This document shows positions 14,382-46,021 of a stretch of 64,000 nt of DNA, one piece after another. The stretch comes from Elusimicrobia bacterium GWB2_63_16. Lineage in GTDB: Bacteria; Elusimicrobiota; Elusimicrobia; Elusimicrobiales; UBA9959. Made by a program: the position numbers and the translations under genes. The stretch lies in contig MGTZ01000002.1 in NCBI GenBank assembly GCA_001799715.1, positions 39,784 to 103,783 of the forward strand, in the 5' to 3' direction. The notes beneath the pieces were generated by a model. It searched no databases. It was not told where the DNA came from and saw only the letters and a program-made list of their open reading frames with translations. Position 1 is the first letter of the stretch. Each line of letters begins with the position of its first letter.

Positions 14382-14813
14382 ATGATAATTCCAATAGACC
14401 CTAAAAAATATTCTTTACCAACGATAAGGTACGCGGCTTACGCGCTGAGCGGCGGAAATCATGTCCTGCTGGCGTTAAAAAAAGGCAAGGTAGAGGCGGC
14501 TTTCTCCCCGAAAGCCGGCGGCTCGGCTGCCGGCCTGAAGAAGCTTTTCCTGAGGGAGCTGGAGGACGAAAAGTTCCGGGAACGGCTCTTCGCGGAGAAT
14601 AGCGAACTCCATTATTGGATGATCAAGCGGGCCATCAATTACGTGCCCGCGGAGAACAAGCCCAGGGAAGAGTTCGGGCTCACCCCGGACCAGGAGAAGG
14701 AACTGGAGCAGCTAATCGCCCAGGTGGAAAGCGAAATCAAGCTGGGCAAGGACGATCCCAAAGGGATAACCAAGACCTGGGAACAGAAATATGGCAAGAA
14801 AGCCCGCCGTTAA
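14382..14813 (+). CDS. HxsD-like small accessory protein (first copy)
   Basis: PKKYSLPTIRYAAYALSGGNHVLLALKKGKVEAAFSPKAGG resembles the HxsD-like protein at 16242 (YSEEALGLAANVAGNARVALKKGRGGLAVEVEAG); overlaps the HxsB-like gene. Confidence 0.5.
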   Translation: MIIPIDPKKYSLPTIRYAAYALSGGNHVLLALKKGKVEAAFSPKAGGSAAGLKKLFLRELEDEKFRERLFAENSELHYWMIKRAINYVPAENKPREEFGLTPDQEKELEQLIAQVESEIKLGKDDPKGITKTWEQKYGKKARR

Positions 14814-16245
14814 AACAGCAGAGGCCCCGGATTTCCGGTTCAGACGGCTCGACGGCGGGTTCCTGGTCACCAACGATTTCGGCGGCCACGCCTTCCTGTC
14901 AAATTCCGATTTTTCGCGGTATTCCACCGGCCGGCTGGCCCCTGGGAGCAAGGTCTATGACGGCCTGGCCGCCGGAGGTTTCGTCAAGGACCGGCTGAAC
15001 TTCGAAAGCCTGTTCGGCAACTGGCGGTCGCGCAATGAATCCGTTTTTTACGGCACCGGCCTGCACATCTTCGTGCTCACCCTGAGGTGCAACCACAAGT
15101 GCGCTTACTGCCAGTCCTCTGTCGCCGGCGAAAAGGCCGAGAATCTGGACATGTCCCTGCCGATAGCCAAAAAGTCCGTGGACCTGGCTTTCCAGAGCCC
15201 AAGGAGCGCTATCACCATAGAGTTCCAGGGCGGCGAACCCCTGGCCAACTGGGACGTGCTGAGCGGGACGATAAAATACGCCAGGCTCAAGGAGAAGCGG
15301 ACCGGCAAGAAGCTGACGCTGGCGCTGGTCTCCAATTTCAGCCTGATGGACGAGGCTAAGGCCGCCTTCCTGCTCGAGAACGAGGTTTCCATCTGCACCT
15401 CCCTCGACGGCCCGGAAGCCCTTCACAACGCCAACAGGACTTACGCCGGCGGCAATTCCCACAAGCAGACCGTCAAATGGCTGAAGCACTTCAATGCCAG
15501 CCACGATTCGCAGTACGGCCTGAAATACCGGGTCTTCAAACCCAGCGCGCTGCTGACGGTCTCGAAACGGACCCTCGGCCGTGGCAGGGAAGTGGTGGAC
15601 GAGTATATCGGGCGCGGGCTGGAAGAGATCTTCCTCCGGCCGCTGGCCCCGATAGGCTACGCCAAGAAGCACTGGGGCGCGATAGGCTACACGCCCGAGG
15701 AATTTCTGAAGTTCTACAAAGAGGCGCTGCGCTACATCCTGCGCAAGAACCACGCGGGGGTGAAGATCAGGGAGAAGTTCGCCGTCCTGCTCCTCTCCAA
15801 AATTTTGAAGTCCAGGGATTCCGGCTATCTGGACATGCGCTGCCCCTGCGGGGCCTCCACCGGGCAGCTGGCCTACAACTATAACGGCGACGTCTACACC
15901 TGCGACGAAGCGCGCATGGTAGGCTGGGGCGGGGACGACATCTTCAAGGCGGGAACGGTCAGGGATAAATACGAGGACATAATTTCCTCCCCCACTACAA
16001 AGACAGTTTGCGCCGCCTCCAATCTCGAATCGCAGCCGCTCTGTCACAGGTGCGCCTACCGGCCCTACTGTGGGGTCTGCCCTGTAGTGAATTACGAGGC
16101 GCAGAACAGCATCTGGGGCCAGATGCCCGCCAATTACAGGTGCCGGCTGCTGACGGGGCTCTTCGACTTTCTGTTCGGTCTGCTGCGGGACGCGAAGAGC
16201 CGGTCCGTACTTGAAACGTGGGTGAACGCTGGAGCGAGCCGATGA
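14791..16245 (+). CDS. hxsB: His-Xaa-Ser system radical SAM/SPASM maturase HxsB-like
   Basis: FRFRRLDGGFLVTNDFGGHAFLS N-terminal region, CNHKCAYC rSAM motif, EFQGGEPLANW, C-terminal SPASM cysteines; adjacent to HxsD-like and HXS repeat ORFs. Confidence 0.8.
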   Translation: MARKPAVKTAEAPDFRFRRLDGGFLVTNDFGGHAFLSNSDFSRYSTGRLAPGSKVYDGLAAGGFVKDRLNFESLFGNWRSRNESVFYGTGLHIFVLTLRCNHKCAYCQSSVAGEKAENLDMSLPIAKKSVDLAFQSPRSAITIEFQGGEPLANWDVLSGTIKYARLKEKRTGKKLTLALVSNFSLMDEAKAAFLLENEVSICTSLDGPEALHNANRTYAGGNSHKQTVKWLKHFNASHDSQYGLKYRVFKPSALLTVSKRTLGRGREVVDEYIGRGLEEIFLRPLAPIGYAKKHWGAIGYTPEEFLKFYKEALRYILRKNHAGVKIREKFAVLLLSKILKSRDSGYLDMRCPCGASTGQLAYNYNGDVYTCDEARMVGWGGDDIFKAGTVRDKYEDIISSPTTKTVCAASNLESQPLCHRCAYRPYCGVCPVVNYEAQNSIWGQMPANYRCRLLTGLFDFLFGLLRDAKSRSVLETWVNAGASR

Positions 16246-16529
16246 AAAAAGAATTTAAAGTCGATCTGGCGCTGTATTCCGAGGAAGCCCTCGGCCTGGC
16301 CGCCAACGTGGCCGGGAACGCGCGCGTGGCGCTGAAGAAAGGCCGCGGGGGGCTGGCGGTAGAAGTCGAGGCGGGGGAGCCCGAGGCCGCCTTCCGGGAC
16401 TTCATGAACGAGGCGCTGAACCAGCAGTGCAGAATAGACCTGGTGAAGAAGAACTTTAAAACGTCCCAGCTTATACTCGCCAATGCTCTGGTCTCGGCTC
16501 TGGGACAGAAGAACTCTAGGGAGGGGTGA
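16242..16529 (+). CDS. hxsD: His-Xaa-Ser system protein HxsD-like
   Basis: Small protein ending FRDFMNEALNQQCRIDLVKKNFKTSQLILANAL; ATGA overlap with hxsB. Confidence 0.7.
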   Translation: MKKEFKVDLALYSEEALGLAANVAGNARVALKKGRGGLAVEVEAGEPEAAFRDFMNEALNQQCRIDLVKKNFKTSQLILANALVSALGQKNSREG

Positions 16530-17548
16530 TGAGAAAGTACCTTATTCTGTTCGTTATCGGCAGCCTCGCGCTGGTCCTGTACCTGCGCAACAGGGATACC
16601 GCCGTCAAGACCGATCTTCTGCCCGTCCCCGTCCAGGAAACGGGCCTGCCTGCCGGCGTGGCGCTGCCGCCCGATGCCGGCAAGATCCAGCCTGTAGAGG
16701 CCTCCCTGTCAACTGACTCGCAGCTCCCGCCAACGCCGCCTGCGCCCATGCCGCCGGCCCCGAATCTGCTTATAAATTCCCCCGCGGACACCTGCGCGAG
16801 GGAGACCAAGGTGAAGGACGTTCTAGCCGGCCACGAAAAGACCTGGGGCTACCTGAGCAAGGACAAACTTAAGAGTTACGCCGTGCTGCAGTCGGTGGGG
16901 GAGCAGGGGATAAAGGACCTCTCCGCCCTGGTGGGCAAGTACCAGGCCTGCGTGTCTCTGGCGCGCGACAAGGACCTGTGCGGCAGCCTGCCCAAGGTGG
17001 ACGGCAAGGTGGACTACGAGATGAACAGGTCCTGCCTTGAAACCCTCTACCCCGTGGGCTTCTCCGGCTACACGATGAACAAGTCCGCCTACCTGTATTG
17101 CTCCGGCTATTTCAAGAATAACCTCAAGGGCGCCAGCGAGTTCACGTCGGAAGGAAACTTCTGCGGCATAGCCAGGGAGGGCCTGCCCACCCTGTCCGCC
17201 AAGTTCTGCGGCAGCGTGCCCGCCGGGGTCAGGGCGACCTGCCTTGGTTCCTTCCCCAAGGACCCCGCGGGCTGCAAGAACGAGGTCTGTTCTTTGATCT
17301 GGAGCGTGCGTGTTGCCGTCGAGAACAACGCCCCCGGTATGCTGGGCCCGGACATGGGTTCGCTCGCCGCGGTCCTGCTGGACAAGAAAGAGGACTCCTG
17401 CCGGCAGCTTGGCGATATGGTGGTTCAGCAATACTGTTCGGTGAAGTACCGGATCGAAACGAAGGTCCAGGAGCTGGAGATAAACAAGAATCAGGAGCAG
17501 CTTAACAAGCAGATGCGGTCCGGCCGGGAAATCAAGTCCGAGGATTGA
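16529..17548 (+). CDS. Membrane-anchored Cys-rich protein, unknown family (paralog A)
   Basis: N-terminal TM, KTWGYLSKDKLKSYAVLQSVGEQGIKDLSALVGKYQACVSLARDKDLCG; paralogous to ORF 17884. Confidence 0.75.
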   Translation: MRKYLILFVIGSLALVLYLRNRDTAVKTDLLPVPVQETGLPAGVALPPDAGKIQPVEASLSTDSQLPPTPPAPMPPAPNLLINSPADTCARETKVKDVLAGHEKTWGYLSKDKLKSYAVLQSVGEQGIKDLSALVGKYQACVSLARDKDLCGSLPKVDGKVDYEMNRSCLETLYPVGFSGYTMNKSAYLYCSGYFKNNLKGASEFTSEGNFCGIAREGLPTLSAKFCGSVPAGVRATCLGSFPKDPAGCKNEVCSLIWSVRVAVENNAPGMLGPDMGSLAAVLLDKKEDSCRQLGDMVVQQYCSVKYRIETKVQELEINKNQEQLNKQMRSGREIKSED

Positions 17549-17557
17549 AGAGGTCTT

Positions 17558-17839
17558 ATGCCTAAAAAAACTAACGGGAAGATCAAAAGATTTCTTAGCA
17601 GCGAAGAAGGGAAGATGGTCGATTCCGATGTCCTGAAAACCGCCATCGCGCTCGGGATCATCGGCGCTACGGCGCCCGAGGACCTCTCCGCCCAGCAACC
17701 CATCGTTCATTCCAACTTCACGGCCAATACGGGGCATTACAGTCACGGCAGCCACGGCTCCCACGCTTCGCACGGTTCCCACGGCTCCCATGGCTCGCAC
17801 GGTTCCCACGGCTCCCACTCGAGGGGCGGCTGGTGCTGA
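17558..17839 (+). CDS. hxsA: His-Xaa-Ser repeat peptide HxsA-like (candidate radical-SAM-modified precursor)
   Basis: 93 aa: leader MPKKTNGKIKRFLSSEEGKMVDSDVLKTAIALGIIGATAPEDLSAQQPIVHSNFTANTG then HYS-HGS-HGS-HAS-HGSx5-HSRGGWC. Confidence 0.85.
   Translation: MPKKTNGKIKRFLSSEEGKMVDSDVLKTAIALGIIGATAPEDLSAQQPIVHSNFTANTGHYSHGSHGSHASHGSHGSHGSHGSHGSHSRGGWC
17735..17815 (+). repeat. Nine in-frame His-Xaa-Ser triads (9-bp units)
   Basis: CACGGCTCC-type 9-mers encoding HYS HGS HGS HAS HGS HGS HGS HGS HGS. Confidence 0.95.
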
Positions 17840-17883
17840 CCCCGGTTCGGCGCTGAGGTTTCAGCCAGCCCGCCCACAATCCG

Positions 17884-18894
17884 GTGAACAAAAAGATATA
17901 CCTGGCCGGCGTCATAGCCTTTGCTGTCGCCGTCTTTTCGTATTGCTATGGGGGCCGCGGCCCGCTTTCGGAGGGCGGCCAAAAGCCGACAGCCGGTCAG
18001 CCGGCCGGGGACGGCTACGGCATCCCGGAAGATTGCCCGGCGGACAGGGGCTATATAGAGGCCCTGATACAGCCGGAGGCGGAGTGCGCGAAAAGCGCCG
18101 ACGTCGCGGGGGTGGCGGCCGCCTACGAGAAGACCTGGGGCTATTTTCGCGGCGATCCGGAACTCTCCTATTTAGCTGCCAGGGCGGCCGCCCCGGCGGA
18201 AGTGGAGGAGCTCAAGGCCCTGATAGGCTACTACCACGCCTGCCTCTCGCTGGCCGAAGGGCGGGACCTCTGCGGCCGACTGGTAAAGAAGCGGGAGGGC
18301 GAAACGGGCCTCTACGACATGATGTATCTTCGCTGCCGCAAGACCTCGCTGCAGGTCGGTTTCGCGGCTTTCGCCGCCGGCTACTCTGACGATGAGGCCT
18401 ACTGCGCTGAAAGTTACAGAAGCTTCCTGTTCCGGGACATAGCCGGGACCGTCGATGAAAAGCAGTTCTGCTCGACCGCCAGGAAGGGGGTGGACGGGCT
18501 CGGCGCCATCTGCAGCGGCGGCGCGGGGTTGTTCTGCTCCGGCGTATTCCCGGCCAATGGCCGGGAATGCAGTCTGAGACCGTACGACAGGACGGATCCG
18601 GGAGACGCCAACGAGGCCTTAGAGGATATGCGGGACTGTGGCGCCTACCGGGATTTCTCCCGCGCTTTCCGGACCGGCAGCCCGGCTGGACTGTCTCCGG
18701 AATACGGGGCGCTTTACGCGGCTTTCGTTTCCCGGGATGCGCGCTCCTGCGAGGCGCTGGGGCGCGCGGCAGCGAAGAGCTACTGTTCTATCAGGCACCG
18801 CATGACGTTTCAGCAAAAGGCCGAAATGATCCGGCTATCTTTTCTTGAGCGGGACGGCAGGCTGAAGCGCCGGAGCGCGGAGGCCGGCCGGTGA
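17884..18894 (+). CDS. Membrane-anchored Cys-rich protein, unknown family (paralog B)
   Basis: KTWGYFRGDPELSYLAARAAAPAEVEELKALIGYYHACLSLAEGRDLCGRLV matches paralog A. Confidence 0.75.
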   Translation: MNKKIYLAGVIAFAVAVFSYCYGGRGPLSEGGQKPTAGQPAGDGYGIPEDCPADRGYIEALIQPEAECAKSADVAGVAAAYEKTWGYFRGDPELSYLAARAAAPAEVEELKALIGYYHACLSLAEGRDLCGRLVKKREGETGLYDMMYLRCRKTSLQVGFAAFAAGYSDDEAYCAESYRSFLFRDIAGTVDEKQFCSTARKGVDGLGAICSGGAGLFCSGVFPANGRECSLRPYDRTDPGDANEALEDMRDCGAYRDFSRAFRTGSPAGLSPEYGALYAAFVSRDARSCEALGRAAAKSYCSIRHRMTFQQKAEMIRLSFLERDGRLKRRSAEAGR

Positions 18895-18907: not shown

Positions 18908-20296
18908 ATGATAAACAAACCGTTCAACCTGTATTTCGAGAACGCCGCGCGGGGCCTCTTCCTCGCCAATGCGTCGGGTCAGGCCGCCTACCTGGAGGGG
19001 GCCTCCTCGCGCCTGCTGCGGCCCTTGCGGCTGGGCCGCCGGACGGCCGCCTGGCTGCGCGACAACGATTTTTTCTCCGGCCGGCTGGACTTCGGCCGGC
19101 TGGAGGAGCGCTTCAGGGAACATTACTTCGCCTCTTACGCCGGTCCCTCCATCCACATAGTTACCCTCACCAACAGGTGCGACCTGGCCTGCTCCTACTG
19201 TTCGGCCAGCTCCAACTCCTCCTCGGCGGATATGTCGAAGGCCACCGCCGACAGGCTGCTGGACTTCGTCTTCGCCATTAAGAACGAGCGGCTGGTGCTG
19301 GAGTTCCAGGGCGGCGAGCCGCTGCTGAACTTCGGGGTGCTGAAGCACATCGTCGTGAAAGCGAAGCGGCTGAACCGCCGGGCCGGCAAGAAACTGCATT
19401 TTTCCGTGGTGACCAACCTGCAGGGCATGGACGCCGCCAAGCTGGACTTCCTGGCCGGCAACGGGGTCTCGATCTGCGCCTCGTTCGACGGGGTGCGCGG
19501 CGTGCACGACAAGAACCGGGTCTCGCGCAACGGCTCCAATTATGACAGGGTGACGCGCTGGCTGAAGGAAATACAGGGGCGCATCGAGCGGGGCGAAAAA
19601 CTGGAAACCCCCAACGCCATCTGCACCGTTACGCGCGACCTGCTGCCTTTCCCCGTGGAAACGGTGGACGCCTTCGTGAAGAACGGGCTGCGCCGGATAC
19701 AGCTGGGGCCGCTGGATCCGGTGGGCCGCGGCGCCCGGCTGGAGCCCTATCCGCAGGCGGAGTATTTCGACTTCTACCGCAAGGCCCTCGAGCGCATGGG
19801 CGAACTGACCCTGAAAACGGGCCGGGCCGTCTACGAAAAAGGCGCCTTCAATATACTCAAATCCACCGAGACCGCCGAGAGGAGCCCCCGGCGCAACCTC
19901 GAACTGCTGCTCAGGCTCGCCTATGACCACAACGGCGATATCTACCCGAGCGACGAGGCCCGGATGCTGGCCGGCGCCGGGGACGACCTCTTCAAGCTCG
20001 GGAACGTACGGCGGGAGCGGCTGCCCGACGTGCTGGAGAACCCCATGGCCAGGGCCCTGATCTCCTCCTGCTTCGGGGAATTCTCGCAGCCCTACTGCGC
20101 CCGCTGCCCGTACAGCTATTACTGCCGTCTCTCGCCTGTCTACAATTACATCTTCCAGGGTTCGTTCTGGGGGAACCTGCCGGCGAGTCCCCGCTGCGCC
20201 TTCTACAAGTTTATGTTCGGCCTGGTGCTGCGGCTCAAGCGCGAGCGGCGCTGGCGCGGCATCTTCGATATCTGGCTCAGGGAGGGCGTGAACTGA
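18908..20296 (+). CDS. HxsB-like radical SAM/SPASM protein (second copy)
   Basis: CDLACSYC, EFQGGEPLLNFGVLK, VSICASFDGVRGVHDKNR, C-terminal CARCPYSYYCRLSPVYNYIFQG. Confidence 0.8.
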   Translation: MINKPFNLYFENAARGLFLANASGQAAYLEGASSRLLRPLRLGRRTAAWLRDNDFFSGRLDFGRLEERFREHYFASYAGPSIHIVTLTNRCDLACSYCSASSNSSSADMSKATADRLLDFVFAIKNERLVLEFQGGEPLLNFGVLKHIVVKAKRLNRRAGKKLHFSVVTNLQGMDAAKLDFLAGNGVSICASFDGVRGVHDKNRVSRNGSNYDRVTRWLKEIQGRIERGEKLETPNAICTVTRDLLPFPVETVDAFVKNGLRRIQLGPLDPVGRGARLEPYPQAEYFDFYRKALERMGELTLKTGRAVYEKGAFNILKSTETAERSPRRNLELLLRLAYDHNGDIYPSDEARMLAGAGDDLFKLGNVRRERLPDVLENPMARALISSCFGEFSQPYCARCPYSYYCRLSPVYNYIFQGSFWGNLPASPRCAFYKFMFGLVLRLKRERRWRGIFDIWLREGVN

Positions 20297-21306
20297 TGCT
20301 CATCAAAGAGGCGGCGAAAAAATTCGGCTGGCCGAGGGCGCGCATGAAGGTCTGCGAGCTGACCCTCAATTACGCCTGCAACGCCCGCTGCATCTTCTGC
20401 TACAGCTCGCCTGACCTGGAGCAGTGGAAGGGCAAGGACGACCTGCGCGCGCGCCGCGCGGCCGACTACCTGCTGCTCTCCTACAAGAGCGGGTCGCGCA
20501 TGGTGCAGTTCATCGGCGGCGAGCCGACCATCTACCCCGAGCTGCCGAAGCTGCTGCGCCTGGCGAAGAAGATAGGTTACCCCGCTATCCAGGTCATTTC
20601 CAACGGCATCAACCTGGGCGACCCGGCTTACGCGGCCGAGCTCGCCGCCTGCGGCATGAACACCGCCAGCATTTCCCTGCACGGCGACAACGCCGCCACC
20701 CACGACGCCATCACGGGCGTCCGGGGCTCCTTCGACAAGGCGGTCAGGGCCTGCGCCAACCTGCGCTCCCACGGTGTTTACATCAACATCAACACGGCTG
20801 TGACCGCGATAAATTACAAGAACCTGCCGGCCTTCACGGGCTTCGCCCTCGACAGCTTCGGCACCGATTCGGTGCACCTGATCGCCACGCATTTTACGGG
20901 CGCCGCGGCCAAGGCGCCGGAGAAACTCATCGTCCGCTACTCGCTGCAGGCCCCGTACATCAGGGCGGCCGTGGACGCCTTCAGGGCGCGCGGCGTGCGG
21001 CCCGCGTTCAGGCTCCTGAGCAACTACGTGCCCTGCCTGCTGCCCGAACACGCCAACCTGATGAAGGACTGGGAACTGCCGAAGCGCGACGACGACCTCT
21101 TCCTGCCGGACGAGACCCACGTCGGGCGCATGTACACCATGGTCACCGACAAACTGCGGGCCAAGGCCGAGAGCTGCCGGGACTGCGCGTACAACCGCGT
21201 CTGCGCCGGCTTCGAGCGGGACTACGCCGACCATTTCGGCCTCGACGAGTTCAAGCCGGTGCGCAGGAAAAGGACGGTTTTCGGGGTGAAGGCGGTCTAT
21301 GGCTGA
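20296..21306 (+). CDS. Radical SAM protein with C-terminal auxiliary-cluster motif
   Basis: CNARCIFC; IGGEPTIYPELPKLL; YVPCLLPEH; CRDCAYNRVCAGFERDYADHFGLDEFKPV. Confidence 0.9.
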   Translation: MLIKEAAKKFGWPRARMKVCELTLNYACNARCIFCYSSPDLEQWKGKDDLRARRAADYLLLSYKSGSRMVQFIGGEPTIYPELPKLLRLAKKIGYPAIQVISNGINLGDPAYAAELAACGMNTASISLHGDNAATHDAITGVRGSFDKAVRACANLRSHGVYININTAVTAINYKNLPAFTGFALDSFGTDSVHLIATHFTGAAAKAPEKLIVRYSLQAPYIRAAVDAFRARGVRPAFRLLSNYVPCLLPEHANLMKDWELPKRDDDLFLPDETHVGRMYTMVTDKLRAKAESCRDCAYNRVCAGFERDYADHFGLDEFKPVRRKRTVFGVKAVYG

Positions 21307-22384
21307 GTTCAACAAGGAGATACAGAAGCTCAAACTGGCGCTCACTTCCGACTGCGTGCTGCGCTGCGCCCATTGCTTTATCGACAAGTCCGCCGGGCTC
21401 ACGCTGCGCTTCGCGGACGCCGCCCGCGCCGTGGACCTGTTCCTCGGCAGCCCCGGCGATTACAAGCGGCTGGAGCTTTACGGCGGGGAGCCCTTCCTGC
21501 GCTACGACCTGCTCAAGCGCATAGTTGCCTATGCCCGGCGCGTCAATAAAAAAGCCGGCAAGCGGCTATTCATCACGGCCGCCACCAGCGCCGTGCCGCT
21601 CGACGAGGCCAAGCTGGCCTGGCTGCGCGCCAACGGCGTCGGCCTGGCCATCAGCTTCTCCGGCGGCCGCGCCACGCACGACCATACCCGCGTCTTTCCC
21701 GGCGGGGCCGGCTCCTACGCCGTGGTCAGCAAGAAGTGCGCCCTCGCGGTCCGGGCGCTGGAGGGGAGCAGCCTGGTGGCCCTTCTCTGCGTGCACCCGG
21801 CCCGGGCCGCCGGCGTCTACGAGGATTTCAGGAAGGTGCTGGCGGCCGGTTTCAGGACCGTGGATATCGAATGCGTCCACGGCCACGGCTGGGACGAGAA
21901 AAGTTTCCGCCTCTTTAAAACCGGCTTCGACAAGGTGCTGCGCCGCGTGGACGCAGGGATCCGCTCCGGCGACCCCGTCTTCCTCGAAAATTTCATCGAG
22001 CTGCTGGTCTGCACCGCGCGCGGCAAATTCGCCTGTCCCGTCTACAGGGACCTCGAGATGTACCCCGACGGGAGCTACTCGCTTTATCCGTTCGGTTTCG
22101 TGGACGGCGCGGCGGACGCGGCCAGGGTGCGCATAGGCAGCGGGGCGAAGGGGCTGAAGAAGAAGTTCCTCGCCTGCTCCTACCCGTCCCGGGCCTGCCG
22201 CGGCTGCGCCGGCGACTACTATGTTCTGGACCGGCTCCGCGACGGCCACGCCCCTTACACCTACCGGACCGCCAGCTCCGAGCTCTTCTTCAAGGGCGTG
22301 CTGGAAAAAACCGCGTCTGACCGGCGCTATCTCGGCTACGTGCGCGAGATCCGGACCATGAGGGAGGCCGCCTACCTGCGCTGA
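21299..22384 (+). CDS. Radical SAM protein
   Basis: CVLRCAHCFIDKS; LYGGEPFLRYDLL; CSYPSRACRGCAG. Confidence 0.88.
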   Translation: MAEFNKEIQKLKLALTSDCVLRCAHCFIDKSAGLTLRFADAARAVDLFLGSPGDYKRLELYGGEPFLRYDLLKRIVAYARRVNKKAGKRLFITAATSAVPLDEAKLAWLRANGVGLAISFSGGRATHDHTRVFPGGAGSYAVVSKKCALAVRALEGSSLVALLCVHPARAAGVYEDFRKVLAAGFRTVDIECVHGHGWDEKSFRLFKTGFDKVLRRVDAGIRSGDPVFLENFIELLVCTARGKFACPVYRDLEMYPDGSYSLYPFGFVDGAADAARVRIGSGAKGLKKKFLACSYPSRACRGCAGDYYVLDRLRDGHAPYTYRTASSELFFKGVLEKTASDRRYLGYVREIRTMREAAYLR

Positions 22385-22403: not shown

Positions 22404-23318
22404 ATGAGGAAATACAGGCGATTCGAGCTCTACCTCAATCTGAACTGCAACCAAAAATGCCTGCATTGTTTCAACGGCAGGGCCCTGCGGGCGGCCGGGA
22501 AAGAGCTTGGCTTTTCGCGGCTCTGCGCCGAAATGCTGCGGATGAGGGCGAAAGGCTTCGACTGGCTGTCGCTCCTCGGGGGAGAGCCCACGATCCACCC
22601 GGAGATACAGAAGCTGGTCGCTTTGGGCAGGAAGATGGGCTACAGGCGTGTGATGACCTACAGCAACGGCCTGAAATACGCCGACCGGGAATTCACGGCG
22701 GGGATGAAAAAAGCCGGGCTTACCGACACCTGCCTCAGCGTCCATGGCCACGACAAGCGGCTGCACGAGGCGGTGACCGGGGTGCCCGGCTCTTTTGAGA
22801 AGGTCCTTCAGGCCATAGAGAACCTGAAGCGCCGCAAGGTGGAGATCACCCTGATACTCGTGCTGAACGCCTTGAACAAAGACAAGCTCAAAGAGATGCT
22901 GCGCTTCTACGCCTCGAAGAAGATAAAGCGGTACATGATCTTTTTCCTCAAATATCAGGGCAGGCTTATCGAGAGCGGCAGCGCGGCGAAAAAATTAATG
23001 TTCCGGGTGTCGGAGCTCGGGGAGACGCTGGCGGAGATCCCGGCCCTGGCGGCGGCCGAGAAGATAAAAATACAGAATATCGAGCACGTTCCGCATTGCG
23101 TTGTTCCGGAGAATTGCCGCGGGCTGATAGCCGGGAACGACTACGGGGGAGCGGAAATGGTGATACAGAGCGGGGAGCTGCTGGAAGTTTCCCGCTCTCA
23201 CAAGGGCTTTCTTTTCAAGAGCGCGTGCCGGGCCTGCCGGTACTACCGCGCCTGCGCGGGGATAGACCCGGAATACGCCAGGGTTTTCGGACTCGGGGAA
23301 TTCTCCCCGGTTAAATAA
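22404..23318 (+). CDS. Radical SAM protein
   Basis: CNQKCLHC; LGGEPTIHPEIQ; HVPHCVVPE; CRACRYYRACAGIDPEYARVFGLGEFSPV. Confidence 0.9.
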   Translation: MRKYRRFELYLNLNCNQKCLHCFNGRALRAAGKELGFSRLCAEMLRMRAKGFDWLSLLGGEPTIHPEIQKLVALGRKMGYRRVMTYSNGLKYADREFTAGMKKAGLTDTCLSVHGHDKRLHEAVTGVPGSFEKVLQAIENLKRRKVEITLILVLNALNKDKLKEMLRFYASKKIKRYMIFFLKYQGRLIESGSAAKKLMFRVSELGETLAEIPALAAAEKIKIQNIEHVPHCVVPENCRGLIAGNDYGGAEMVIQSGELLEVSRSHKGFLFKSACRACRYYRACAGIDPEYARVFGLGEFSPVK

Positions 23319-37392: not shown

Positions 37393-38327
37393 AGCCCGGC
37401 GGCAAGAAGCTCAAGATCGTGCTGTTCACCGGCTACGCCTGCAACAACAACTGCGCCTTCTGCATAGACGCCGACAAGCGGGACCTGCCGCAGAAGAGCA
37501 CCCCGCAGCTGCTGCGCGAGGCGGCCCGGGCGGCCGCCGCCGGGGCCGACATCCTGGAGATCATAGGCGGCGAGGCCACCATCAGGCCGGACTTCGCCCG
37601 CGTCGTCGGCGCCGCCAAGCGCCTCGGCATCCCCGAAGTGATCTGCGCCACCAACGGCCGCATCTTCTCCGACAAGGAGGCCGCTCGCCGCATTCTGGCC
37701 TCCGGCATAGACTCGCTGGTCTTCTCGGTGCACGGCCCCGACCCCCGCGTGCACGACGCGCTCACCCGCGCGCCGGGCAGTTTCGCCCAGCTGCGGCGCG
37801 GCCTGCGCAACCTGCGCGAGCTCGGCTTTAAAAGCGTGAACGGCAACACTACCGTAGTGAAGCGCAACATGGCCTCGCTGCCGCGCATAGCGGAGTTTTA
37901 CATCGCCCACGGCGTGCCCAACGTGGAGTACATTTTCGTGGACCCGAATTACGGCGGGGCGAAGAACGATTTCGACGCGCTGGTGCCGCGCATCTCCCGG
38001 GCCGCGCCCTACATGCGCCGCGCCCTGGCCGCCGGCCGCCGGGCCGGCTTCGATCAGTGGAAGGCGCGCTACGTGCCTCTCTGCCATTTCAAGGACTGCC
38101 TGAAGCAGATCAGCGAGACCAACGAGCGGGGCCTCTTCCTGACCGAGCACTGGGCCCCCGATTTCACCAATAAGGACGCCATCGGCTCCCGCGCCGCCGT
38201 GGGCCGCCGCAAGACGGCGCGCTGCCGCGGCTGCGCGCTGTACGGCGACTGCGAGGGCATCTGGACCGAATATCTGGCGCGCTACGGCGACGCCGAGCTG
38301 AAGCCGGTCAGGCGGAGGCCCGCGTGA
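37389..38327 (+). CDS. Radical SAM protein
   Basis: CNNNCAFC; IGGEATIRPDF; YVPLCHFKDCLKQ; CRGCALYGDCEGIWTEYLARYGDAELKPV. Confidence 0.88.
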   Translation: MKPGGKKLKIVLFTGYACNNNCAFCIDADKRDLPQKSTPQLLREAARAAAAGADILEIIGGEATIRPDFARVVGAAKRLGIPEVICATNGRIFSDKEAARRILASGIDSLVFSVHGPDPRVHDALTRAPGSFAQLRRGLRNLRELGFKSVNGNTTVVKRNMASLPRIAEFYIAHGVPNVEYIFVDPNYGGAKNDFDALVPRISRAAPYMRRALAAGRRAGFDQWKARYVPLCHFKDCLKQISETNERGLFLTEHWAPDFTNKDAIGSRAAVGRRKTARCRGCALYGDCEGIWTEYLARYGDAELKPVRRRPA

Positions 38328-39346
38328 GCCCCGAAACGCCGCAGGCGCCCAACCACCTGGTAGTCTACCTCAGCGGCCGCTGCAACCTGGCCTGCGGCTA
38401 CTGCTATTCCCGCGCGCCCGGCGGGCCGGTGATAAAACAGGACGCGCTGTTGGGGGCCGTGGGCGACTTCCTGCGCTCCGCCCCGCGCGGCGCCAAGATC
38501 TCCTTCCTCGGCGGCGAGCCGCTGCTGCACAAGCCGCTGCTGCGCGCCGCCGTGCGCCTGGTCCGGGCCGAGGCCGGCGCGTCCTTCCCGGTGGCGGTGT
38601 TCACCAACGGCCTGCTGCTGGACCGGGCCGAAGCCGCTTTCCTGAAAGAAAATTCCGTGAAGACCGTGGTCAGCCTCGACGGGGACCCCGCCGCGGCCGG
38701 CTACGCCCGGGGCCGCGCCCCCGACCTCTCCCGGCTGGACGTCTCCTCCCTGTCCGCCAGCGCCGTCGTCACCCCGGCTACCGCCGGCCGGCTGGCCGAG
38801 AACGTGGCCTGGCTTTACCGGGCTGGCTTCCGCTCCATAGGCTGGGCGCCCGACGTCAAGGCGGTCTGGGACCGCGCCGCGCTGGCCCGGCTGGCCGCTT
38901 CGGCCGCCGCGCTGCGCAAATTCTACCTGGGCCTGCTGCGCTCCGGCCTGCCGCCCTACGAGCTGGCCAACGCCTATGAGGCGCTGGACGCCGAGCGCGG
39001 CCGCCCGCCGGCCCGCGGCTGCCTCAGCCTGACGCTGGGCCCGGACGGCAGGATCTACCCCTGCGACAAGCTGGCCGGCCTGGGCGCCCCCGGTCCCGGC
39101 CTGCCGCAAGACCGCGCCGCTTTCTTCTCGGCCGCCGCCGCCGCCGGCTTCCGTCCCTACGGCCTGATGTGCCCGGTGGCGCCGTGGGCCGCCGCCGGCT
39201 GCCCTACGGGCAAGGCGCTGGCCGCCCGCCGGAGCTACTTCGCCGGCCAGGCCGCCGCGCGGCTGCTGGTGCGCCGCTGGCTGAAGGGTCTGGCCGCCGC
39301 GGGGCTGCGTTTCCCGGCTTTCCGGCGCGTTCACAATATAAGGTAA
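38324..39346 (+). CDS. Radical SAM/SPASM-like protein
   Basis: CNLACGYCYSRAPGG; LGGEPLLHKPLL; VVSLDGDP; LGPDGRIYPCDKLAGL. Confidence 0.88.
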   Translation: MSPETPQAPNHLVVYLSGRCNLACGYCYSRAPGGPVIKQDALLGAVGDFLRSAPRGAKISFLGGEPLLHKPLLRAAVRLVRAEAGASFPVAVFTNGLLLDRAEAAFLKENSVKTVVSLDGDPAAAGYARGRAPDLSRLDVSSLSASAVVTPATAGRLAENVAWLYRAGFRSIGWAPDVKAVWDRAALARLAASAAALRKFYLGLLRSGLPPYELANAYEALDAERGRPPARGCLSLTLGPDGRIYPCDKLAGLGAPGPGLPQDRAAFFSAAAAAGFRPYGLMCPVAPWAAAGCPTGKALAARRSYFAGQAAARLLVRRWLKGLAAAGLRFPAFRRVHNIR

Positions 39347-39355: not shown

Positions 39356-40549
39356 ATGAAATCCCCGGGAACAGGCCGCTGCTACGAGCTGATACTCAAC
39401 TATAACTGCAACGCGCGCTGCCGTTTCTGCTCCCAGGGGGATTTCGACAAGTCGCTCAACGCGCCTTTCGAGGACATAGCCCGCAACCTCTACTCCGCCT
39501 ACCGCGCCGGCTACCGCCGGCTGGGGCTCACCGGCGGCGAACCGCTGATCAGGCCCGACATACTCAAGGTGATAGCCCTGGGCAAGTCGGTGGGGTTCCG
39601 CTTCATACGCGTGCAGACCAACGGCATAAAACTGGCGGATACTGCCTTCTGCCGGGCGCTGGCCAGGGCCGGCCTGACCTTCTGCAAGTTCTCGTTCACC
39701 ACCGACCGCGCCGCCGAGCACGACCGGCTGGTGGGAGTGCCGGGCGCGCTTAACAAGGCGCTGGCCGGCCTGGAGAACCTGCGCAAACTGAAGCTGCGCC
39801 TCGGCACCAATATCCTCGTCAACAGGCTTAATTATGCCCGCCTGCCGGAGATCGTTAAGTTCTACCTCGGCCGGGGCATCACCAATTTCGTCGTCATCTA
39901 CCCGGTCTATATCGGCGCCATGGCCGACAACTGCAAAAAACTGGGCGTGCGCCTCTCCGACTGCGAGCCGTACTTCGCCGAGACCGTTAAGGTCATGGAG
40001 ACTGCCGGCCTGCCGGGGGAGATACTCTTCCTGAACACGCCGCCGTGCTTCCTGCGGGGCCGCGAGTCGCTGGCCATAGGGCTGGACCTGTTCAACACCG
40101 TGGTGACCGATCCCTCCGGCGGCCGCACCGACCTTGACGCCAACGCCGCCGCCTCCAGGGTGAAGGGCCCGCCCTGCCGCCGCTGCGCGCTGGCTAAAAA
40201 ATGCCGCGGCGCGGACGCGCATTATATCGAGCGCTTCGGCTGGCGCGGCTTCGTGCCGGTGGTCCGGGCCGGGAGCGAAAAAAAAGCCGGCCCCGGGGGC
40301 CGGATCTATCTTTCCGATAACGAGCGCTGCCTCGTGGAGATACTGCGGCGCAAGCCGGGGGCCTCTACCCGGGAAGTGCTGGCCCTGTCGAAAGACATTG
40401 TGCTCTGCCGCGACTGTTCCGACGGGAACACTGTCCTCGCCTCGGCCTCCTCGCTGGCGGCCAAGGGGCTGGTGACCAGCAGTTTCGCGAGGGGCGTATA
40501 CCGCTGGTCGCTGGCCAAACCTTATTCCGAAATAAAAAAACTGCTTTAA
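39356..40549 (+). CDS. Radical SAM protein with C-terminal winged-helix-like extension
   Basis: CNARCRFC; LTGGEPLIRPDIL; CRRCALAKKCRGADAHYIERFGWRGFVPV; then ~85 aa LSDNERCLVEILRRKPGASTREVL...SSLAAKGLVTSSFARGVYRWSL. Confidence 0.85.
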   Translation: MKSPGTGRCYELILNYNCNARCRFCSQGDFDKSLNAPFEDIARNLYSAYRAGYRRLGLTGGEPLIRPDILKVIALGKSVGFRFIRVQTNGIKLADTAFCRALARAGLTFCKFSFTTDRAAEHDRLVGVPGALNKALAGLENLRKLKLRLGTNILVNRLNYARLPEIVKFYLGRGITNFVVIYPVYIGAMADNCKKLGVRLSDCEPYFAETVKVMETAGLPGEILFLNTPPCFLRGRESLAIGLDLFNTVVTDPSGGRTDLDANAAASRVKGPPCRRCALAKKCRGADAHYIERFGWRGFVPVVRAGSEKKAGPGGRIYLSDNERCLVEILRRKPGASTREVLALSKDIVLCRDCSDGNTVLASASSLAAKGLVTSSFARGVYRWSLAKPYSEIKKLL

Positions 40550-40554
40550 CCCCG

Positions 40555-41070
40555 CTAGAAGAAGCGGCGCACGAACCTGCCCGGCCGTTCCGGCGCCGGC
40601 AGGGGCGCGGCGGGCCGCTGCTGCTCAGGGGCTTCGGCGCGGACGGCCCCGCGCAGCAGGTCGCTGATCTCCTCCCTGTGCGCGTTCTCGCGCGCCAGCT
40701 GTTCCCGCAGGCTCTCGCGGCGGTTCTTTTCCTGCTCCAGCTCCCTCCGGAGCTCGAGCTTCTCTTCCTCCTGCTTGCGCAAATCTTCGCGGGCCCGCTC
40801 CAGGTCGCGGCCCACCTCGCGCAGGGCCGACAGCGAGGACGCGGCCAGCACGTTCTGCTCGGTAAGCAGCGTCCTGGCGGCCTCCAGTTCGTCCTTGAGG
40901 TCCGCGCATTTCCGGTGCAGGTCCAGCACCTCGCGGTTCAGCTGCCAGCTGTCCCGCCCGGCCGCCGGCCGCGGCTCGGCCGTGCTCCCGGGCGCGCGCT
41001 CGAAAAGTTCCGCCTCGATATTGCGCAGCGCGCGGAAGCTGTCATCGGAAGGGTTTTGCGCGTTATTCAT
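40555..41070 (-). CDS. Coiled-coil protein, unknown function
   Basis: ORF with heptad-rich LREVGRDLERAREDLRKQEEEKLELRRELEQEKNRRESLREQLARENAHREE. Confidence 0.6.
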   Translation of the reverse strand: MNNAQNPSDDSFRALRNIEAELFERAPGSTAEPRPAAGRDSWQLNREVLDLHRKCADLKDELEAARTLLTEQNVLAASSLSALREVGRDLERAREDLRKQEEEKLELRRELEQEKNRRESLREQLARENAHREEISDLLRGAVRAEAPEQQRPAAPLPAPERPGRFVRRFF

Positions 41071-41186
41071 AATATCCTCTCTGTCGCGAAGGTATATTAG
41101 ATTTTTGCCCGCCGACCTCCCGTAACATTCAGGAAAAGCTCAGATTTTCCTCAAATCCCGGGCGGTTCCTTTATACAATATGTATC

Positions 41187-42029
41187 ATGCCGCTGATACA
41201 TTTGTTCAGGCGCTGCGATCAGCGCTGCGTGTTCTGCTCCTACCCGGCCGACGCCGGGGAGGACGCCCCCGCGGTCTTGAAGGACTGGCTGCGCGAGATA
41301 GCGGCCATGCCGCCGGGCCCCGTGCAGATCTCCGGCGGGGAACCGCTGCTGGCCGGGACGGACAACCTCTGCCTGCTGCTGGCCGCGGTGAAGAAACTGG
41401 GCCGCAAGGCGGAACTGCAGACCAACGCGATAGCCGCCGCAGCCCTGCCCGCCGCGGAATTGGCGCGCCTGGCGAAAGCCCTTAACGCTGCCGGGGGCTA
41501 TTTCAACGTCAATTTCCCCGCCGCCTCCCCGGCCGCGGACTACAGGATCACCAAAACCCGCGGCGCTTTCGCCAAAAGGCTGGCCGGGGTGCGGCGGCTC
41601 CTGAAGGCCGGCGCCGCCGTGCGGCTCACCTGCGTGATCAGTTCCTTGAATTTCAAGCGCCTGCCCGCCTTCGCGGCTTTCGCCGCTAAAAAACTGAAAG
41701 GCGTCGCCTGGCTGCAGTTCAGCTATATCAAGGGCGTCGGCCGCGCCGAGGCCCGCTATTTGCCGGCTTACGGAGAGGTGAAGCCGTACCTGCTGGAGGC
41801 GCTGGAGCTGTGCCGGACCGTCGGCCTGCGCTGCGACGTGGACCATATCCCGCCCTGCTATCTCGGCGGCTTCTACCGGCTCAACGTCGATATTGTTAAA
41901 ATGAAGGAAGGCCGTCCCGGCCCGCACCTGCGGGAGAAGGCCCGGGTGCCCGCCTGCCGCGGCTGCCGTTTCCTGGCCCTGTGCCCGGGCCCGCGCAAGG
42001 ATTATATGGCCGCGCATAAAAAACTATGA
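41187..42029 (+). CDS. Radical SAM protein
   Basis: CDQRCVFC; ISGGEPLLAGTDN; HIPPCYLGGFYRL; CRGCRFLALCPGPRKDYM. Confidence 0.85.
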   Translation: MPLIHLFRRCDQRCVFCSYPADAGEDAPAVLKDWLREIAAMPPGPVQISGGEPLLAGTDNLCLLLAAVKKLGRKAELQTNAIAAAALPAAELARLAKALNAAGGYFNVNFPAASPAADYRITKTRGAFAKRLAGVRRLLKAGAAVRLTCVISSLNFKRLPAFAAFAAKKLKGVAWLQFSYIKGVGRAEARYLPAYGEVKPYLLEALELCRTVGLRCDVDHIPPCYLGGFYRLNVDIVKMKEGRPGPHLREKARVPACRGCRFLALCPGPRKDYMAAHKKL

Positions 42030-43276
42030 ACCCGAAAATAGCCGCCCTCAGGAAGGAATTTCCCGCGCTGGACGAGGATTTCGGCGGGCGCAGGCTGGTC
42101 TACCTCGACAGCGCCTGCACCGTGCTCAAGCTGCGCTGCGCGGCCGACGCCCAGCGCCGGCACATGCTGCTGCTGGGCGGCTGCGGCGGCAGGCGCTCCA
42201 TGCACTCGCTGGCTTCGGCGATGGAGGAGGATTTCCTCGCCGCCCGCGCCCGGGTGGCCGGCTTCATGGGCGCCGCCTCGCCCGAAGAGGTCATCTTCTG
42301 CTCCGGCGTCACCGACGCGGCCAACCTGCTGGCCAACTCCTTCCCGTTCACGCCGCGCCGCAACGAAGTGGTGCTGTCCCCGCTGGAACACAACGCCGTC
42401 TTCCTGCCCTTCGAGCGCCTGGCCGCCGCCGGCCGGATAAAGCTCCGCGTGGCCCCGCTGGACGGTTTCCGCGTAGACCTGCGCGGCCTGGCCCGGCTGA
42501 TAGGGCCGCGCACCGCGCTGGTCTGCGTGAACCACGCCTCCAACATCTTCGGCGGCGTGTCGGACGTGGCCGCCGCGGCCCGCCTGGCGCATGACGCCGG
42601 CGCCTATCTTTTCTGCGACGACGCGCAGTACGCCCCCACGCACGGCGGGGGAGGGGCGGCGCTGGGCGCCGACGCGGCGGCCTTCTCCGGCCACAAGCTG
42701 GGCGCGCCGTTCTTCACCGGCGGGCTCTACGTGCGCCGGGCGCTGCTGGAGCGGCTGCGCCCGTGGCGCGTGGGCGGCGGCACGGTGGAGAAAGTGACCG
42801 GCGCCGGCGGCCGCTACTCCGCCACCTACCTCGGCGGCTACCAGGGCTTCGAGGCCGGCGTGCAGAACTATTCCGGCGCGGCCGGCCTGAGCTCGGCCAT
42901 AGCGCGCCTGGAGCGGGCGGGTTTCGCCGCCATCAGGGAACATGTCTCTGGCCTGGTGGCCGGGGCCCTCGACGAGCTGGAAGGCGTGAAGGCCGTGAAG
43001 GTGCTGGGCAGCCGCGAGGACCTGCTGCGGGGTTCGCTGATCACGCTGGCTCCGCTGAAGAAGAGTTTTTCGGTGCCGGACTTCGCGCTGTACCTGAACT
43101 CCGCGGTTAAGGGGCGCATGGTCGCCGTGCGCACCGGCCGCCACTGCGCCGACCTGGCCTGCCTCAACTCCGGCTACAGCGAGACGGTGCGCATTTCGTT
43201 CTTCGCCTACAATACCCCGGCCGACGCCGCCTGCTTTACCGCGGCCCTGCGCAAATACCTGCACCTGGCCGGCTAA
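42026..43276 (+). CDS. Class V aminotransferase / cysteine desulfurase-like PLP enzyme
   Basis: LVYLDSACT, VNHASNIFGGVSDVAAAARLAHDAGAYLFCDDAQYAPTH, FSGHKLGAPFFTGGLYVR (PLP Lys); ATGA overlap with rSAM. Confidence 0.88.
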   Translation: MNPKIAALRKEFPALDEDFGGRRLVYLDSACTVLKLRCAADAQRRHMLLLGGCGGRRSMHSLASAMEEDFLAARARVAGFMGAASPEEVIFCSGVTDAANLLANSFPFTPRRNEVVLSPLEHNAVFLPFERLAAAGRIKLRVAPLDGFRVDLRGLARLIGPRTALVCVNHASNIFGGVSDVAAAARLAHDAGAYLFCDDAQYAPTHGGGGAALGADAAAFSGHKLGAPFFTGGLYVRRALLERLRPWRVGGGTVEKVTGAGGRYSATYLGGYQGFEAGVQNYSGAAGLSSAIARLERAGFAAIREHVSGLVAGALDELEGVKAVKVLGSREDLLRGSLITLAPLKKSFSVPDFALYLNSAVKGRMVAVRTGRHCADLACLNSGYSETVRISFFAYNTPADAACFTAALRKYLHLAG

Positions 43277-44554: not shown

Positions 44555-44620
44555 GCTCAGCTCCGCGCCGCTGGAGGAAAAGCCGCCGTCCAAAACCTGA
44601 TGGACGGCGGCGCACCGGGC

Positions 44621-46021
44621 ATGAAATCAAGAAAGCTCGACGTCTTATTTATTCATGTAGGACGGCGGTCCGCGGACCATTGCGATACGCTGATAATGCC
44701 GGTGGGGCTGGTCATGCTGGCCGACCACCTCGAGCGCCACGGTTTGGCCGCCGGAGTTCTGAATCTTTCCGTGGAGCTGCTGGAAAACCCTCGGTTCAAT
44801 GTGGAGAGATTCATAGAGCGCTGCGGACCGGGGGTGCTGGCTTTCCCGCTGCACTGGCATTCACAGCTGAAAGACGCCCTCGCCTGCCTGGCGCGCCTGA
44901 AACGCCGCTTCCCACAAAAAACGACAGTTGCCGGGGGGTTCTCCGCCTCTCTTTTCTTCCGCGATATTCTGGCCCTGCCCGGCGCCCCCGACTTCATCAT
45001 CCGCGGGGATGCCGAAAAGCCGCTGCTGGCGCTTTGCCGTTCGCTGCTGCGGGGAGTTCCCGGGCTGGCGCGCGTGCCCAACCTGGCCTGGCGGCGCCAG
45101 GACGGGACCGTAGAGGCCACCCCGCAGAGCTACGTCGCGACTGGACGGGACCTCTCCGGGCTTTCTTACGCCAATCTCGACCTGATCCTGAACAAAGAAA
45201 ACGTAATGAAATATTCGGATGAGCAGGAGGCGCCGCTGCGCCGCCGCCCTGGGGAGCGGCCGCCGGACTGCGGCAAAGTCTTTTACGTGGCGGGCCGCGG
45301 TTGCGCCAACGAATGTTCTTTCTGCGGCGGCGCCAGCGGGACTCAGGCGCTGGCCAACGGAAGGCGGGGCGCTATTTATAAGCCAGCCGGCACGGTGGTG
45401 AAGGACTTGCGTCTGTTGTTGGCCGCCGGCGTCAGGAAGGTGCATTTCGCTTTCGATCCTCTGCCCCGCGCCGGCTATTATCCGGACCTGTTTTCCCGGC
45501 TGCGGCGGGCCGGGCTGCGGTTTAAAGCCACTTTCGAGGCTTTCGGGCTGCCGACGGAGCGTTTTCTGCGCGCCTACGCCGAAGCGCTGCCGGGGTCACG
45601 GGTGATCGTCTCCCCCGAGTCCGGCAGCGAGCGCGTGCGGCGGCTCAACCGGTGTGACTTCTACAAAAATCCGGACTTGTTGTCCCGGCTGGCGCTGATG
45701 AAGTCGCTGGGGCTGGAGCATACTGTCTGCTTCAGCGTCGGACTGCCGTTCGAGACGCGCCGGGATTTTTTGGCGACCCTGCGGCTGGCCGGCAAGGTCA
45801 AAAAACTCTGTCCGAAAGGGGAGGTCTTTATGAGCCCCATACAGCTCGAGCCCTTCTCTCCGCTTTACCGGACGCCGCAGAAATACGGCGCCTCGCTTGA
45901 TTGGACCTCGCTGAAGGATTTCCTTGAGCAGAAGCCGCGGACGCTGGGCTATTCCGCCGGTCTGATGGGGGAGCGGGAAGTATGGGAGAAGGCGGCGCTG
46001 TTCAACCGCGCTATGCGTTGA
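44621..46021 (+). CDS. B12-binding-type radical SAM protein
   Basis: N-terminal cobalamin-binding-like region (PVGLVMLADHLERHG..., GGFSASLFFRDIL), rSAM CANECSFC, SPESGSERVRRLNR; start 44600 or 44621. Confidence 0.8.
   Translation: MKSRKLDVLFIHVGRRSADHCDTLIMPVGLVMLADHLERHGLAAGVLNLSVELLENPRFNVERFIERCGPGVLAFPLHWHSQLKDALACLARLKRRFPQKTTVAGGFSASLFFRDILALPGAPDFIIRGDAEKPLLALCRSLLRGVPGLARVPNLAWRRQDGTVEATPQSYVATGRDLSGLSYANLDLILNKENVMKYSDEQEAPLRRRPGERPPDCGKVFYVAGRGCANECSFCGGASGTQALANGRRGAIYKPAGTVVKDLRLLLAAGVRKVHFAFDPLPRAGYYPDLFSRLRRAGLRFKATFEAFGLPTERFLRAYAEALPGSRVIVSPESGSERVRRLNRCDFYKNPDLLSRLALMKSLGLEHTVCFSVGLPFETRRDFLATLRLAGKVKKLCPKGEVFMSPIQLEPFSPLYRTPQKYGASLDWTSLKDFLEQKPRTLGYSAGLMGEREVWEKAALFNRAMR

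Follow-up and report, generated by a model that had tools for sequence, protein, structure and literature searches.

The window, a stretch of 64,000 nucleotides from contig MGTZ01000002.1 of Elusimicrobia bacterium GWB2_63_16, holds an island of radical SAM (rSAM) genes around one HXS-repeat precursor gene. The features are as follows, with positions in the window, bit scores against the model named and occurrence among 18 islands:

13624..14322, + strand: 'pil', first gene of the locus, conserved; encodes a secreted LTLTTYYPAPYGGY/VGIGT protein; no Pfam match; single copy in this genome
14319..14813, + strand: HxsD-like protein 1, upstream of and overlapping HxsB1; TIGR03976 21.3 (cut-off 50); 18/18 islands
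14791..16245, + strand: HxsB1, rSAM/SPASM maturase; TIGR03978 479 (cut-off 370)
16242..16529, + strand: HxsD-like protein 2; TIGR03976 18 (cut-off 50)
16529..17548, + strand: S1, Cys-rich, N-terminally anchored protein; no Pfam match
17558..17839, + strand: HxsA4 precursor with leader FLSSEEGKMVDSDVLK, (HGS)n core and RGGWC tail; NF038313 64.1 (cut-off 55)
17884..18894, + strand: S2, second Cys-rich anchored protein; no Pfam match
18908..20296, + strand: HxsB2, divergent HxsB clade; TIGR03978 297, below the cut-off of 370
20296..21306, + strand: C1, HxsC-like rSAM; TIGR03977 102, NF038332 118, both sub-cut-off
21299..22384, + strand: P1, PapB/HxsB-like rSAM; NF047865 103, sub-cut-off
22404..23318, + strand: C2, HxsC-like rSAM; NF038332 99, sub-cut-off
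23331..24380, - strand: C3, HxsC-like rSAM; NF038332 91, sub-cut-off
24659..25336, + strand: Dph6-like ATP pyrophosphatase/amide ligase, variable; PF01902 56 (cut-off 23.2)
25333..27687, + strand: H, two-rSAM fusion of a HemN/HutW-like and an HxsC/MoaA-like domain; two PF04055 domains; PRK08208 157, HutW 147
27728..28948, + strand: T, A24-type membrane aspartic peptidase; PF01478 20.7 (Pfam cut-off 26.5); 18/18 islands
28945..29874, + strand: C4, HxsC-like rSAM, often beside U1/V1
29874..30806, + strand: U1, UbiU-like U32 protein; PF01136 62.6, NF047963 57
30806..31576, + strand: V1, UbiV-like partner; four Cys are invariant in the alignment
31581..32513, + strand: C5, HxsC-like rSAM; NF038332 74.7, TIGR03977 72.7, both sub-cut-off
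32513..33364, + strand: U2, UbiU-like; PF01136 65
33361..34101, + strand: V2, UbiV-like
34113..35060, + strand: C6, HxsC-like rSAM, core; NF038332 138.8; own clade (support 0.998); 17/18 islands
35057..36490, + strand: HxsB3; TIGR03978 425 (cut-off 370)
36499..37392, + strand: C7, HxsC-like rSAM, core, nearest to HxsC; TIGR03977 157.3 (cut-off 267.9); 18/18 islands
37389..38327, + strand: C8, HxsC-like rSAM, core; 18/18 islands
38324..39346, + strand: P2, PapB-like rSAM; NF047865 79.8, sub-cut-off
39356..40549, + strand: C9, HxsC-like rSAM, core; clade support 0.905; 18/18 islands
40555..41070, - strand: minus-strand gene
41187..42029, + strand: C10, HxsC-like rSAM, core, adjoining the SufS-like gene; clade support 0.999; 17/18 islands
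42026..43276, + strand: SufS-family cysteine desulfurase homologue; TIGR01979 254 (cut-off 475), PF00266 232.8
44600..46021, + strand: R, B12-binding rSAM, doubtful accessory; TIGR04190 181, sub-cut-off; 1/18 islands, namely this window
46011..46703, - strand: V3, UbiV-like, accessory
46706..47518, - strand: U3, UbiU-like, accessory; PF01136 42

The CxxxCxxC motifs recorded in the first-pass annotation are present in 17/17 rSAM ORFs, twice in the ORF at 25333, and its count of 17 rSAM ORFs with 18 domains at 14791-46021 was reproduced. The last of these is doubtful: an ortholog of the B12-type rSAM at 44600 occurs in 1/18 islands, which leaves 16 rSAM proteins with 17 domains over ~29 kb as firm. 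The whole 2.87-Mb assembly contains 50 PF04055 domains, 18 of which lie at 15073-45790 of the window against 0.54 expected (binomial P=4.5e-23), which rules out chance clustering of rSAM genes. The coding share of 14319-46021 is 97.8%, and the stop-start overlaps noted earlier are real, 15 of 30 junctions being overlapping. With minus-strand genes at 23331-24380 and 40555-41070, however, the island is not a single unbroken operon. Absent from the first-pass list were the HxsD-like gene at 14319-14813, which overlaps the start of 14791, and, beyond its coordinates, further U32-type genes on the minus strand (46011-47518). Conserved synteny stops at 43276 with the SufS-like gene and is followed by an M20 hydrolase that belongs to the conserved flank. 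A recent mobile island was ruled out, as there is no tRNA in the window, no sharp GC break, and relatives have the same flanks. The product of the 'pil' gene, which adjoins the cluster in several f7 contigs and in the majority of family-f1 contigs, is a candidate partner or substrate. The S1 family has 24 members, with 11 alignment columns containing at least 80% Cys.

HxsA4 is the sole HxsA copy in the genome, and a search of the same genome for an extra HxsA found none. It scores 17.2 bits against TIGR03979, under the cut-off of 121.65. Given that intergenic gaps in the island never exceed 278 bp, there is no room for a further precursor. Nine HxsA leaders, which come from DPANN archaea, Elusimicrobiota and Patescibacteria, have an identical FL..EEG, and, judging from this conservation, the invariant motif FLxxEEG is the likely cleavage site. 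Type IV prepilins typically have an acidic residue at +5; among the HxsA leaders, only some have one. T, which is additional to the other A24 peptidase of this genome, misses the Pfam cut-off, and its catalytic Asp residues (D33 and AGD106) do not vary among 22 bacterial and archaeal sequences. Like type IV prepilin peptidases (Peptidase A24), T is a membrane protein and has the two catalytic Asp motifs; unlike them, it scores below the Pfam cut-off, has an extra C-terminal region and is encoded beside HxsA rather than pilus genes. T is a putative leader peptidase of HxsA.

HXS repeats are numerous and variable, from about 5 to over 100 units, whereas cofactor precursors are single-site; this argues against HxsA being consumed as a scaffold for a small redox cofactor or metallophore, like PqqA or mycofactocin precursors, instead of becoming a secreted polymer. 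The hydrophobic segment predicted in the leader and the secreted or anchored neighbours would likewise point to export. Dph6- and M20-type enzymes nearby would suit a scaffold, and a physiological rather than antibiotic role is suggested by the core being vertically inherited and almost universal within one family, and by its occurrence in reduced genomes; yet overall we consider such a fate improbable.

Most of the rSAM ORFs were not assigned to housekeeping families, which are ruled out here: the best NCBIfam matches are of HxsB, HxsC or PapB type, and of HemN type at 25333. The 18 HxsB2 orthologs are monophyletic and all 18 lack the same several auxiliary-cluster Cys. Both HxsD-like proteins miss the TIGR03976 cut-off, but at a relaxed E-value this model is matched by 30/30 members of the HxsD-like 1 family and 24/24 of the HxsD-like 2 family, and profile-profile comparison related HxsD-like 1 to HxsD-like 2 with 99.3% probability. 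A fold search with the HxsD-like proteins returned nothing at E<=0.001 and ferredoxin-like matches at E>=0.03 only, and thus no confident match to a known RRE fold. No island protein reaches the cut-off for HxsC (267.9; C7 scores best) or for HxsC4 (500; best 141.7 bits). Eleven island domains are HxsC-like and share a C-terminal Cys signature found in 184 of 206 HxsC-like proteins. The presence of so many HxsC-like paralogs in one place could be read as a lineage-specific expansion of recent tandem duplicates with little functional meaning. The tree of the 206 proteins largely refutes this reading, which we regard as highly improbable: they form separate, mostly single-copy clades common to several families, C6-C10 being orthologous across families, and HxsB2 and HxsB3 are each monophyletic with fixed Cys patterns. 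Recent duplication of the HxsC-like paralogs is thereby ruled out.

The core consists of HxsA, HxsB, HxsD, C6, C7, C8 and the A24-type peptidase; it lies at the same chromosomal place in family relatives, with conserved synteny, recurs around HxsA in other families, and is also found in Patescibacteria and DPANN archaea. Across 248 genomes, C6/C8 occur in 53/55 HxsB-positive Elusimicrobiota genomes versus 5/193 others (Fisher P~1e-45, uncorrected for phylogeny), so the genes do co-segregate. C8 was found at 71 loci in GTDB genomes, Patescibacteria and DPANN among them. In the seven genomes taken from the C8 scan (Patescibacteria, DPANN, Omnitrophota), HxsB exceeds its cut-off in 7/7, and 6/7 encode HXS peptides next to the cluster or together with it. 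Neighbour counts in relatives' contigs were taken from all ORFs, as a simple gene caller undercounts AT-rich contigs.

Beyond this core, the tailoring genes differ between species and include UbiU/UbiV-like U32 pairs, HemN-type and B12-type rSAM, Dph6-like and SufS-like genes; H is present in 8/18 islands, U1 in 7/18, N in 6/18 and R in 1/18. U1-U3 exceed the PF01136 cut-off of 22.4, the V proteins gave no PF01136 match, and a fold search with V produced TIM-barrel-like matches, all above E=0.001. Four Cys are invariant in V (19 sequences) and three in U (14 sequences), and three of the four U32 matches of the genome lie inside the island locus. The known chemistry of the UbiU/UbiV U32 oxidases is O2-independent hydroxylation (PMC10470549, PMC11574389). 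The island U/V proteins resemble them in the paired genes, in the U32 domain of U1-U3 and possibly in conserved Cys for [4Fe-4S], but they are far under the UbiU/UbiV equivalog cut-offs and form three pairs coupled to rSAM genes at a peptide locus. The SufS-like sequence carries the catalytic-type motif RTGRHCA.

Given that the accessory modules are patchy, some could serve another product. Taken further, the locus would be a hotspot of several independent pathways, in which a small HXS core (HxsA/B/D, C7, T) sits among unrelated rSAM, U32, HemN and B12 pathways that would make lipids, cofactors or further natural products. The widely variable accessory content fits this. It also fits that several relatives have C4-U1-V1 on the opposite strand, away from the main run, and that relatives' islands contain or adjoin inserted genes, among them B12-rSAM arrays and NifH/NifDK-like genes. 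However, the eleven HxsC-like domains are of one kind, with the Cys signature in most homologues, C6-C10 accompany HxsA in other families, C6, C7 and C8 do so also in Patescibacteria and archaea, and the genes overlap tightly, so that we consider a hotspot unlikely. Of the earlier suggestion of several merged pathways, what stands is that U/V, H, N and the B12-rSAM are variable modules; these are added onto a fixed core. Meheust et al. are said to have described, in 2020, a NifH paralog with a radical-SAM suite in Elusimicrobia. Relatives have NifH-NifD-like genes adjoining the island, whereas the search of the present genome gave a best score of 25.6 bits and no clear NifH paralog. We know of no described HXS link for this suite.

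The HXS system HxsA/B/C/D (TIGR03976-TIGR03979) was described by Haft and Basu, according to its citation in PMC9062424. The island resembles it in having an HxsB maturase, an HXS-repeat peptide, an HxsC-like second rSAM and an HxsD-like small protein, and differs in its roughly 16 rSAM proteins versus two, in scores under the HxsC and HxsD equivalog cut-offs, and in the added A24-type peptidase, U32 pairs, SufS-like and Dph6-like proteins. It is also like the HxsA4/HxsC4 variant (NF038313, NF038332), as the precursor passes the HxsA4 model and several rSAMs match HxsC4 best, but those NCBIfam models cover single proteins, and the multi-enzyme cluster belongs to the island. HxsB and HxsA4 scores over curated cut-offs, the single precursor, synteny and co-segregation all support the earlier description, a greatly elaborated HXS-type modification system. 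With a probability of about two-thirds, we interpret the island as the genes for making a single RiPP-type product from HxsA4, an exported, iteratively modified HGS-repeat peptide, with HxsA as the probable substrate of most island enzymes. Speaking against this interpretation are the HxsC, HxsD and T scores under their cut-offs, the acidic +5 residue confined to some leaders, the patchy accessory modules and the fold searches with the HxsD-like and V proteins.

In such a pathway, HxsA4 would be translated with the conserved leader FLSSEEGKM..DV.K....LGI.GA, and the HxsD-like proteins and the HxsB- and HxsC-family rSAM enzymes would work on it in the cytoplasm, each enzyme clade making its own bond type or acting on its own section of the HGS-repeat core and the tail. 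Modules that differ between species may add O2-independent hydroxylation (U32 pairs with rSAM), methylation (HemN/B12-type rSAM), amide formation (the Dph6-like ligase) and sulfur insertion (C10 with the SufS-like protein). After modification, T would cleave in the membrane behind the Gly that is invariant in the leader, and the repeat region, now modified, may be exported or kept membrane-anchored. More tentatively, this could be a new maturation machine of Elusimicrobiota, Patescibacteria, DPANN archaea and partly Omnitrophota, in which an HXS-repeat protein is processed in pilin fashion by its own A24-type peptidase into a membrane-anchored or surface polymer of His/Ser repeats with several rSAM-made modifications.

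To our knowledge, HXS peptides have been annotated for more than a decade without a known product, and the literature searched contained no characterised one; nor do we know of another pathway with one precursor and this many rSAM enzymes. The locus separates a conserved core (HxsD, HxsB, C6, C7, C8 and the A24-type peptidase) from optional genes and allows the cleavage site to be predicted, and the species, differing in their tailoring genes, form a natural series. Co-expression can therefore put the HXS question to the test. These data point to an unusually elaborate peptide-modifying system without a described function. Reduced genomes of the episymbiont type also have its core, which suggests that this function is worth its cost.

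All 17 radical SAM (rSAM) proteins listed in the first-pass annotation carry the CxxxCxxC motif in their translated ORFs, and the protein at 25333 carries it twice. Across the assembly, which comprises 62 contigs totalling 2.87 Mb and is 91% complete, PF04055 returned 50 rSAM domains, 18 of which fall within window positions 15073-45790 against 0.54 expected (P=4.5e-23). The genes are tightly packed: the coding share of 14319-46021 is 97.8%, gaps of more than 100 bp occur only at 24381-24658 and 41071-41186, and the overlapping junctions reported earlier were borne out, with 15 in this interval.

Family assignment of genes in the His-Xaa-Ser (HXS) island (window starts)
14319 and 16242, HxsD-like proteins
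14791 and 35057, HxsB (TIGR03978), above cut-off
17558, precursor HxsA4 (NF038313), above cut-off
18908, HxsB (TIGR03978), below cut-off
21299 and 38324, PapB/HxsB-like rSAM
24659, Dph6-like
25333, fusion of a HemN/HutW-like and an HxsC/MoaA-like domain
27728, A24-like peptidase
42026, SufS-like
44600, B12-type rSAM

The two HxsD-like proteins are akin to one another, and HxsC or HxsC4 was the best or near-best model for 11 rSAM domains, all with sub-cut-off scores. Three U32 UbiU-like proteins are each accompanied by a small partner carrying four invariant cysteines. UbiU and UbiV perform O2-independent hydroxylation (PMC10470549, PMC11574389), and by likeness to them the U32 pairs may do the same; family membership likewise suggests putative roles for the SufS-like, Dph6-like, HemN-like and B12-type proteins. 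HxsB and HxsC have been named in passing as putative maturases (PMC9062424), and in the literature searched, where they received such mentions only, no HXS product is described.

Of 36 genomes sampled from the window organism's family, its own among them, 35 had HxsB above cut-off, as did 55 of 248 across the phylum. The expected co-segregation of the block was upheld: C6 or C8 (HxsC-like rSAMs; E<=1e-40) occurred in 53 of the 55 genomes with HxsB versus 5 of the 193 others, the Fisher value for this association disregarding common ancestry. We compared the region across 25 further members of the family and 14 additional genomes from the phylum. In most family members, the locus occupies the same chromosomal place, flanked 5' by LpxD/BamA-type genes and PhoH and 3' by an M20 hydrolase and an ornithine-carbamoyltransferase-like gene. 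Among 18 contigs that include the greater part of the locus, with counts bounded by contig ends and a 60-bit/half-length threshold, all encoded the HxsD-like protein of 14319, HxsB1 (14791), the A24-like peptidase and the HxsC-like C7, C8 and C9; C6 and C10 were present in 17, C1 in 14, and HxsB2 (18908) and HxsB3 (35057) in 13. The accessory genes varied (two-rSAM fusion, 8; UbiU-like U1 and U2, 7 and 9; accessory gene N, 6; B12-type rSAM, 1), and fetched stretches contained 7 to 29 rSAM genes, subject to the same bounds. A single HxsA was present per island where found (that of G087 being recognised by pattern), and none in the fetched part of G222.

Just 5' of the island, a secreted ribonuclease (PF00545) gene is followed by one for a barstar-like inhibitor (PF01337; 12502-13469), a pair retained there in many relatives. 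The gene at 13624-14322, single copy in the genome, is the first of the HXS locus in two families; its secreted product contains the motifs TYYPAPYGGY and VGIGT and has a C-terminus rich in Cys. Two Cys-rich anchored proteins (16529-18894) lie on either side of HxsA4, with 11 columns of at least 80% Cys across 24 homologues. In relatives (L062:9600-13474 and its equivalents in G111, G087, G045, G028 and G151), NifH fused to a nitrogenase-component-1 domain and a second component-1 protein adjoin the island; no clear NifH was seen in the window's own genome. A 2020 study by Meheust et al. reportedly described Elusimicrobia NifH paralogs near radical-SAM genes. Extra rSAM arrays, many of the B12-binding type (cluster k1), accompany the locus in G221, G109 and G030 (L045-L047, L059-L060, L051-L054), the last with 29 rSAM genes in 68 kb.

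Scanning GTDB with C8 returned 71 loci, mostly titled Elusimicrobia, Elusimicrobiales or Elusimicrobiota, the top match reaching 94% identity (UBA11697), which settles the phylum. Relatives at 36-51% identity came from records titled Patescibacteria, Falkowbacteria, Nealsonbacteria, Parcubacteria, Woesearchaeota, Aenigmatarchaeota and Omnitrophota, the Omnitrophota match being nearer to C6. These records are mostly metagenome-assembled and single ones may be misbinned, yet six independent assemblies concur. All seven non-Elusimicrobiota genomes tested encoded one HxsB above cut-off, and in them HxsD-like genes, A24-like peptidases and HXS peptides adjoin HxsB or the C6/C7/C8 cluster. The Patescibacteria record encodes a 258-aa HXS peptide immediately 3' of HxsB; such peptides also occur in the Parcubacteria, Falkowbacteria, Nealsonbacteria, Aenigmatarchaeota and Woesearchaeota loci, with none seen in the Omnitrophota stretch. 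The Woesearchaeota locus also retains homologues of C10, SufS-like and C9, arranged in this order. In one Falkowbacteria genome (L190:16608-17240), two tandem HxsA genes of unequal repeat length lie behind one HxsB, and a Nealsonbacteria fragment cut by the contig start (L180:1-1299) encodes a very long HXS protein with 432 aa of SHxSH-type repeats.

HxsA4 is single copy in the genome. Nine leaders from Elusimicrobiota, Patescibacteria and archaea share FL..EEG, followed mostly by K at +1, I or M at +2 and a hydrophobic stretch. Because the search patterns already demanded part of the EEG motif, independent leader conservation is that of the later positions and of HXS peptides found by their repeats; K+9, L14, G15 and G18 are kept in 34-35 of 36 Elusimicrobiota leaders. 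The invariant glycine with the hydrophobic segment after it would resemble a class III signal peptide. The A24-like peptidase is additional to the genome's single A24 peptidase above cut-off, and both its catalytic Asp motifs are kept in 22 of 22 aligned sequences.

A tree built from 206 HxsC-like proteins, 184 of them with a C-terminal Cx2Cx4-7Cx[GP]x4Y signature, resolves C4 to C10 as distinct clades that mostly have a single member per genome; those of C6-C10 take in members from other families. HxsB2 forms a clade of 18 genomes (support 1.0) that retains the rSAM cysteines together with Cys 418, 421, 427 and 451 (HxsB1 numbering), while Cys 353, 371, 406 and 430, retained by HxsB3, are gone from all 18. 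Given these separate orthologous clades and fixed cysteine patterns, C4 to C10, HxsB2 and HxsB3 are old and distinct enzymes.
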